Source of the DNA: Williamsia maris | GTDB lineage: Bacteria; Actinomycetota; Actinomycetes; Mycobacteriales; Mycobacteriaceae | DNA length: 64,000 nt | Reading direction: 5' to 3' | NCBI RefSeq assembly: GCF_024171815.1 | Contig: NZ_JAMTCJ010000001.1 | Location: 1,116,001-1,180,000, forward strand | In this document: positions 62,889 through 64,000 of the stretch, one piece after another | Numbering within the stretch: the stretch's first letter is position 1 | Layout of the letters: every line of letters begins with the position of its first letter | Made by a program: the position numbers and the translations under genes | Notes under the pieces: generated by a model | The model's database searches: none | The model's input: only the letters and a program-made list of their open reading frames with translations | Told to the model about the DNA's origin: nothing

Positions 62889-63326
62889 CTACGAACTACG
62901 ACGCTTCGCCTCGGCGATGAGTCCCTTTTTGGCGGTGTCGACCGCCTTCTTCTGGGCCTGCTTGACGATCATCCCGGGGAGCTTGATCTTCAGGTCGGCC
63001 TCGAGCTCGAACGCGACATGCGCACCGCCGTTCTTCTCGGTGACGGTGTACTTGCCCTTCTGCGACGACAGCTGATCGGCCTCCACCAGCTCCCAGGAGC
63101 ACGAGTTGTCGGTCCAGGTGTAGTCGAGCACCTCGTTGTCGGTCAGTCCGGCCATGCTGACGGCGACCTTGACCCGCTTCGGGGAACCGTCGGAATGCGT
63201 CTCGACGATCTCGGCGCTCTTGTGCGGACCCGACCAATCGGGCAACGCCTCCACATCGAGCAAGATCTCCATGATCACCGACGGCGCGACGTCGACATCG
63301 AATTCGGTTTCTCCACTGACAGCCAT
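62889..63326 (-). CDS. SRPBCC-fold (polyketide cyclase/START-like) protein
   Basis: A 145-residue protein of the SRPBCC family, from ETEFDVDVAPSVIMEILLDVEALPDW through a beta-sheet core (EVLDYTWTDNSCSWELVE, VTEKNGGAHVAFELEADLKIK) to a C-terminal helix with KKAVDTAKKGLIAEAKRR. These proteins bind lipids or other small hydrophobic ligands. The mycobacterial paralogues are conserved and uncharacterised. TAACTT six bases before the ATG marks it as leaderless. Confidence 0.8.
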   Translation of the reverse strand: MAVSGETEFDVDVAPSVIMEILLDVEALPDWSGPHKSAEIVETHSDGSPKRVKVAVSMAGLTDNEVLDYTWTDNSCSWELVEADQLSSQKGKYTVTEKNGGAHVAFELEADLKIKLPGMIVKQAQKKAVDTAKKGLIAEAKRRSS

Positions 63327-63364
63327 GCCGCGAAGTTACCCGACGTCACCGGCGCGGGGTGACG

Positions 63365-63445
63365 CTATTCGCGCTCTTCGAGACGCAGCAACCTATTCGC
63401 GCTCTTCGAGACGCAGCAACCTATTCGCGCTCTTCGAGACGCAGC
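63365..63445. repeat. 28-base tandem repeat, 2.9 copies, duplicating a gene's 3' end
   Basis: Units 63365-63392 and 63393-63420 are identical; a third copy, 63421-63445, matches over its first 25 bases and is the tail and stop codon of the gene that ends at 63421. Each unit starts with CTATTC and, on the minus strand, encodes LLRLEERE plus TAG. Confidence 0.9.
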
Positions 63446-64000
63446 GGCCAGGCCTCGTCCGGGATCTCGTGGATCGAGCACGGCCGATCGGCCGCGGTGA
63501 ACCATCCGCGGAAGTGCATGATCTCGCCCAGGGTCACGTTGCGTACCGTCGCGTCGAGCCGGAACCGCTGCGCCTCGTCGTCCCACTCCTCCACGTAGCG
63601 CATCGACGTCGCGAACAGCCCGCGCATGCCCATGCGCAACCCGCGACTGAGCATCCGCATCGGCTCGCTCTCCAGGATCAGCGATCCGCCCGGCCCGACC
63701 CGCGGGGTGAGCGGGATCAGCAGGTCGGGACCGTCGCCGAAGTAGTCGATCAGACCGGTCGACCCGTTCACCAGCAGGGAATGCAGACGCTGCTCGCCGT
63801 TGGAGTACGCGAACCGACGGATGACGGCCAGGCACTCGCGGCCACGCTCGTCGCGATAGCAATAGTTGTCCATGAAGAACGGGACCAGGCGACTCGTCGT
63901 CGTCGGCATGACGTTGCGCTTGCGGAAGAAGCGCAGCACCGGCGGCGTGAGCTTCGACGTGCAGAAGACGGATTCGACCATGCCGCTGGTCATCTGGGCG
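63421..64000 (-). CDS. Conserved hypothetical protein, 5' end cut or at the window edge
   Basis: The frame is open to the right edge; the first in-window ATG is at 63993 (191 residues, or more if the gene continues). The sequence has RFFRKRNVMPTTTSRLVPFFMDNYCYRD at the start, and GTGLIDYFGDG-like and RVGPGGSLILESEPMRML segments in the middle, then a beta-rich region ending in PLRLEERE. A DUF4166-type relative is possible, but I could not confirm it. No signal or TM segment is obvious. Its last codons and stop are tandemly repeated downstream. Confidence 0.7.
   Translation of the reverse strand, partial: AQMTSGMVESVFCTSKLTPPVLRFFRKRNVMPTTTSRLVPFFMDNYCYRDERGRECLAVIRRFAYSNGEQRLHSLLVNGSTGLIDYFGDGPDLLIPLTPRVGPGGSLILESEPMRMLSRGLRMGMRGLFATSMRYVEEWDDEAQRFRLDATVRNVTLGEIMHFRGWFTAADRPCSIHEIPDEAWPLRLEERE

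Follow-up and report, generated by a model that had tools for sequence, protein, structure and literature searches.

Bacterial variable-number tandem repeat (VNTR) or minisatellite loci consist of near-identical units arranged head to tail at one locus, with a copy number that differs between relatives. The MIRU elements of mycobacteria are dispersed intercistronic repeats that lie between co-directional genes and carry stop codons. The nearest published parallel to the locus described here comes from Mycobacterium tuberculosis, where PMC12817950 describes copy-variable promoter tandem repeats at dop (57 bp), lpdA (58 bp), and cysG (54–56 bp), two of the promoter repeats lying proximally upstream of leaderless promoters. 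Our literature searches found no paper on a stop-carrying gene-tail repeat of the present kind, nor on the 21-nt arrays reported below.

The array of 28-nt units studied here lies in a 64,000-nt stretch of DNA from Williamsia maris (the window) and is a minisatellite, or VNTR-like, locus, real and ordinary in kind. It occupies the gap between two co-directional genes, in the following arrangement:

Position equal to window 64095, minus strand: likely ATG of the DUF4166 gene, placed from upstream sequence read in L004
63421..64000, minus strand: 3' part of the DUF4166 gene (ORF; Pfam PF13761, E 9.9e-32), which runs beyond the window edge
63421..63448, minus strand: copy 1, the coding tail with the TAG stop (63421–63423), GCCGCTGCGTCTCGAAGAGCGCGAATAG, 26/28 against the other copies
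63393..63420, minus strand: copy 2, non-coding, with TAG (TRF and in-register alignment)
63365..63392, minus strand: copy 3, non-coding, with TAG, the same as copy 2 (TRF and in-register alignment)
63333..63338, minus strand: predicted -10 box TAACTT of a leaderless promoter, 6 nt before the SRPBCC ATG (TANNNT-N5-8-ATG in orthologues)
62889..63326, minus strand: SRPBCC-type gene (Polyketide_cyc2), next downstream (ORF; Pfam PF10604, E 1.9e-9)

TRF places the array at 63365–63445 with a period of 28, 2.9 copies, a 100% match, and a score of 162, the highest among the 16 TRF arrays listed for the window. The DUF4166 gene ends at the TAG at 63423..63421, with the protein C-terminus PLRLEERE, and the units at 63365–63392 and 63393–63420 behind it are identical (GTTGCTGCGTCTCGAAGAGCGCGAATAG). 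A sequence-only reading of the window had proposed that the last 28 bases of the gene, stop codon included, are repeated twice downstream. The two identical 28-nt copies found by TRF bear out the copying of the tail with its stop, but 28 is slightly generous for the gene's own end, which agrees with copies 2 and 3 at 26 of 28 positions, 25 of them contiguous. The same reading held the protein to be protected from change, and it is, as the first stop always wins; the unit length not divisible by three, which it also cited, is irrelevant. Between copy 3 and the -10-like box, a 7-bp inverted repeat (CGTCACC-N7-GGTGACG on the minus strand, window 63344–63364) can be seen, which, read by eye, is not intact in the related genomes G005 and G001. 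Upstream of the DUF4166 gene, just beyond the right edge of the window (L004:3594–3646, minus strand), a TAGATT box lies 8 nt upstream of a very short ORF of 11 codons in the genome containing the window (G000), in G001, and in G005, and of 10 codons in W. herbipolensis. The TGA of this ORF overlaps the likely DUF4166 start as ATGA and, again read by eye, the peptide varies and the layout is constant.

The unit is confined to this one place. A 25-mer of it occurs three times in the window and in none of 100 dinucleotide shuffles of the window (at most 3 mismatches), and across the whole 4.93-Mb genome G000, whose closest named relatives are Williamsia, the 24-nt core is found in only three places at the same tolerance, all inside the array. 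Among 339 gene ends in a 400-kb stretch of G000, called by conservation against G001, the focal gene alone has its last 24 nt recurring downstream (at least 18/24, ungapped, within the next 104 nt), and among the stronger arrays of that stretch (period at least 12, score at least 70) only the 28-nt array reaches 100%. A pattern search with up to 2 mismatches found the core in 5 of 401 family genomes: in G000, G001, G003, and G005 at the focal locus, and in G224 at one unrelated-looking place with 2 mismatches. A dispersed repeat was rejected, as neither the genome search nor the 401-genome family search shows a further array locus. The resemblance to MIRU elements, as repeats with stop codons between co-directional genes, thus ends where dispersal begins: MIRUs occupy many genomic loci, and the 28-nt unit occupies three places in one array.

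Copy number differs among close relatives. Counting the coding tail, the eight Williamsia genomes, one per species and assigned to the genus via named relatives, carry 3, 3, 2, 2 plus a decayed third, 1, 1, 1, and 1 copies. The three-copy genomes are G000 and G005, the latter a MAG (contig NZ_JAEMTF010000012.1) with the same GTT linker; G001 has two, the second of which (GTCGCTGCGGTTGGAAGAGCGCGAATAG) differs at 4/28 nt. In CHRR-6 (G003), two copies at 27-nt spacing are followed by a degenerate third, and copy 2 ends in TGG in place of TAG, a stop loss of no effect on the gene since the protein already terminates at the stop of copy 1. A single copy is present in each of W. herbipolensis, W. 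deligens, W. serinedens, and isolate 235-3Z. In a tree of eight neighbouring proteins, of which both outgroup rows contain only part, G000 and G001 join (support 0.899), followed by G005 and then W. herbipolensis, and CHRR-6 groups with the outgroups (0.970) and is hence basal in the genus. Because G005 branches outside G000 and G001, the three-copy state with its GTT linker would be older than the split between them; most simply, then, the array was in place before they separated, or else the stretch passed from one species to another, and G001 either lost one copy or likewise took part in an exchange. The array of CHRR-6 may be an older one that was kept there, with two losses elsewhere, or it may have been gained independently. 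Slippage of VNTR type, which the sequence-only reading had proposed with copy number among strains as its check, is supported between species. Like bacterial VNTR loci, the array shows near-identical units head to tail, within the usual unit size of about 10–100 nt (28 nt, 2.9 copies, 100%), at a single locus with copies that differ between relatives; it departs from them in that a gene's coding end, stop included, serves as its first unit, and that the variation is between species only.

How old the copies are, and whether anything holds them alike, can be judged from the divergence around them. G000 and G001 mismatch at 8.0% over 358 kb aligned, and G000 and G005 differ by 12.9% in intergenic and 9.1% in coding DNA. 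The perfect copies had been taken as a sign of a recent event, which is only partly right, as the array is common to G000 and G005, genomes about 9% apart in coding DNA. The 56 copied non-coding nucleotides show no difference between these two, and 26 of 105 four-fold sites of the DUF4166 gene do. Strong selection on the copies was considered on that comparison (26/105 against 0/56) and is unproven, since 178 of 1687 intergenic 56-nt windows are equally unchanged between G000 and G005. The control is mixed: among ten comparable 56-nt windows that immediately follow a stop, only that of the array is unchanged, and the others carry 3–21 changes. In G001, where the bases behind copy 2 also clearly differ from G000, none of the three substitutions that fall in the tail part of copy 2 would alter an amino acid encoded by the gene tail, an outcome expected for 1.0% of random triples, 2.4% of triples with the same spacing, and 6/27 at those very positions; this copy may formerly have been coding sequence, for example prior to some exchange among strains. 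Taken as they stand, these comparisons would fit turnover of the array, and any sign of homogenisation or constraint is mild at most.

A TANNNT box shortly before an ATG is the signature of a leaderless promoter, and such a box stands 5–8 nt before the SRPBCC start in 43 of 43 orthologous loci with the start placed (66 loci were tried and 23 were not placeable). A conserved -10-like motif is thus present, and the array lies at -39 to -94 relative to the predicted leaderless start. It is conceivable on this account that the number of units upstream of a leaderless SRPBCC promoter tunes expression, as has been proposed near dop, lpdA, and cysG of M. tuberculosis. What speaks for this is the position before a conserved leaderless-type promoter, the copy-variable repeats reported near leaderless promoters in a related genus (PMC12817950), and the junctions of G000 and G005, each of which reads TAGGTT, itself a TANNNT box. 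In the comparison with the M. tuberculosis repeats (PMC12817950), the likeness extends to tandem units by a predicted leaderless promoter with variable copy number in a mycobacterial relative, but here the unit ends at -39, has no -10 box, and repeats the tail of the upstream gene. The promoter core is not part of the 28-nt unit: the predicted box at 63333–63338 falls outside the repeat region 63365–63448, and from -1 to -66 before the SRPBCC start only two linker bases differ from the one-copy state (GTT for GCC), so that the promoter-proximal sequence barely alters with copy number. Since each unit is a copy of the gene tail, the SRPBCC promoter would hardly register how many there are. The junction box, moreover, needs merely one T after the fixed TAG-GT and is missing in G001 and CHRR-6, half of the genus does without the array, and a scan of 63300–63480 for promoter or terminator consensus found none. 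We regard tuning of expression by the array as improbable. The 94-nt gap itself is ordinary for a DUF4166/SRPBCC pair: 43 orthologous gaps range from 34 to 150 nt with a median of 66, and 11 of the 43 are 94 nt or more. The longer 3' UTR envisaged by the sequence-only reading holds in so far as the gap exceeds that of the one-copy state, but it stays within the range of the orthologues.

The remaining alternatives fare less well. A functional RNA or 3'-end element, such as a terminator or stability element conserved as RNA, might be transcribed after the gene, provided that transcription continues across the pair, and the 7-bp inverted repeat at 63344–63364 follows the array; the array itself has no unusual fold, being less stable than its shuffles (z +1.46, with 183 of 200 shuffles at least as stable), no terminator-like site was found in 63300–63480, the unit is altered in copy 2 of G001, and 4 of 8 species have no extra copy. 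Such an element was rejected on the fold statistics (z +1.46), and we hold it to be very improbable. In favour of an attachment-site scar, or a dispersed mobile repeat, as the source of the duplicated gene end is that the 3' ends of genes are common integrase targets, where a partial duplicate is often left behind. Against this, the unit shows no further genomic occurrence with 3 mismatches allowed, no exact 24-mer match in the viral contig collection, and, among the 401 family genomes, only the four Williamsia matches at the focal locus and the one 2-mismatch match in G224, and nothing lies between the copies; the chance of such an origin appears slighter still. That tandem repeats are prone to miscounting would allow for an assembly error, which we consider the least probable of all, given that a separate assembly with a diverged background (the MAG contig NZ_JAEMTF010000012.1) has the same three copies.

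We consider it probable that the 28-nt array is a single-locus minisatellite produced by slippage or unequal exchange and hidden from both of its neighbours, the copying slip being probably ordinary and harmless. We posit a tandem duplication, in a Williamsia ancestor, of the final 28 nt of the DUF4166 gene, with the break just behind the stop codon, after which slippage or unequal exchange altered the copy number, from 1 to 3, and kept the copies alike. The array would persist since neither neighbour sees the copies: the first stop ends the protein, and the promoter region is almost unchanged. The perfect array, its confinement to one locus, the varying copy number, the decay of copy 2 in G001 and of copies 2 and 3 in CHRR-6, the weak fold, the ordinary gap, and the lack of promoter or terminator consensus in 63300–63480 count for this explanation; the 0/56 changes between G000 and G005 together with the synonymous triple in G001 count against it.

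The sequence-only reading had also suggested that the copies could act as a hot spot, and here the evidence is suggestive only: in two Gordonia species this gene end has stop-spanning repeats of other units. With a score of 12 or more and an overlap of 10 nt or more with the gene required, stop-spanning tail duplications occur in 6 of 66 DUF4166 orthologs, namely four times as the Williamsia array, in G. namibiensis (G142; L134 = L036) as a 41-nt unit, and in Gordonia G411 (L109) as a 13-nt unit in four copies; at score at least 12 alone the count is 7/66, the seventh being Gordonia G391 (L124), whose 24-nt repeats begin at the DUF4166 stop and which was dropped because they do not enter the gene. 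The 66 loci are the 8 genus genomes, L013–L019, and L095–L145; left out were the most distant loci, L020–L022, and the named loci L023–L038, of which L023–L028 duplicate genomes already counted, L036 duplicates L134, and the remaining nine are Gordonia loci that may overlap with the set. Of 51 testable SRPBCC gene ends, one has a tail duplication, a 24-nt stop-spanning unit in W. herbipolensis (L008), a species without the 28-nt array. The difference between 6/66 focal and 1/51 next-gene ends gives a Fisher p of 0.14, and counting distinct units (3/66 against 1/51) gives 0.63. By the same criterion, G000 and G001 each have 3 qualifying ends among 339, one of which is the focal gene in both; 6/66 focal against 4/676 non-focal ends gives p 0.018, where two of the four control ends are orthologous to each other, judging by position and sequence pattern, the genomes are not independent, and the genome-wide controls come from G000 and G001, none from Gordonia. 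In a further test of 28 gene ends (18 genomes and 10 named Gordonia), the tail was found again downstream at 0/500 shuffles in L005, L006, L007, L012, and L036, and more weakly in L037 (0.008) and L034 (0.02), the values being uncorrected. The DUF4166 gene end may on these counts be a hot spot for tandem repeats.

Tandem arrays of another kind were seen elsewhere in the genome. A 21-nt family with the core CCAGTTGGGCACGTAA occurs at 77 places in G000 (at most 1 mismatch; 0 for the reversed control), and all six multi-copy clusters in the 400 kb, which lie outside the window on contig C1 (L051, L058, L060; 1102228–1102306, 1103318–1103375, 1109709–1109787, 1246294–1246330, 1287867–1287924, and 1287983–1288040), stand 5–68 nt past the stop codon of a gene, on the sense strand of that gene, two of them facing each other behind convergent genes. 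The core recurs at 53 places in G001, 64 in W. herbipolensis (G004), and 30 in G005, was not found in the four other Williamsia, and has a single place, in one genome, among eight genomes of other genera; relatives of these arrays with 22-nt units exist. As a lead, these post-stop arrays are better than the 28-nt array. At least three different units at the DUF4166 end (28, 41, and 13 nt), the 24-nt unit at the SRPBCC end of W. herbipolensis, and the 21-nt post-stop arrays together would suggest that tandem arrays arise preferentially at gene 3' ends in Williamsia and Gordonia, where a process or function shared at transcript ends favours repeats behind the stop, although we judge this unlikely.

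The 28-nt array is an instructive case of how a duplication can be hidden, in that its unit carries the stop of the upstream gene and repeats sequence already present upstream of the next promoter. If copy number also varies within species, the array might be used for typing Williamsia. Should the recurrence at the DUF4166 gene end and the post-stop 21-nt arrays share one cause, this would be a sign of a hitherto unstudied process acting where actinobacterial transcripts end.
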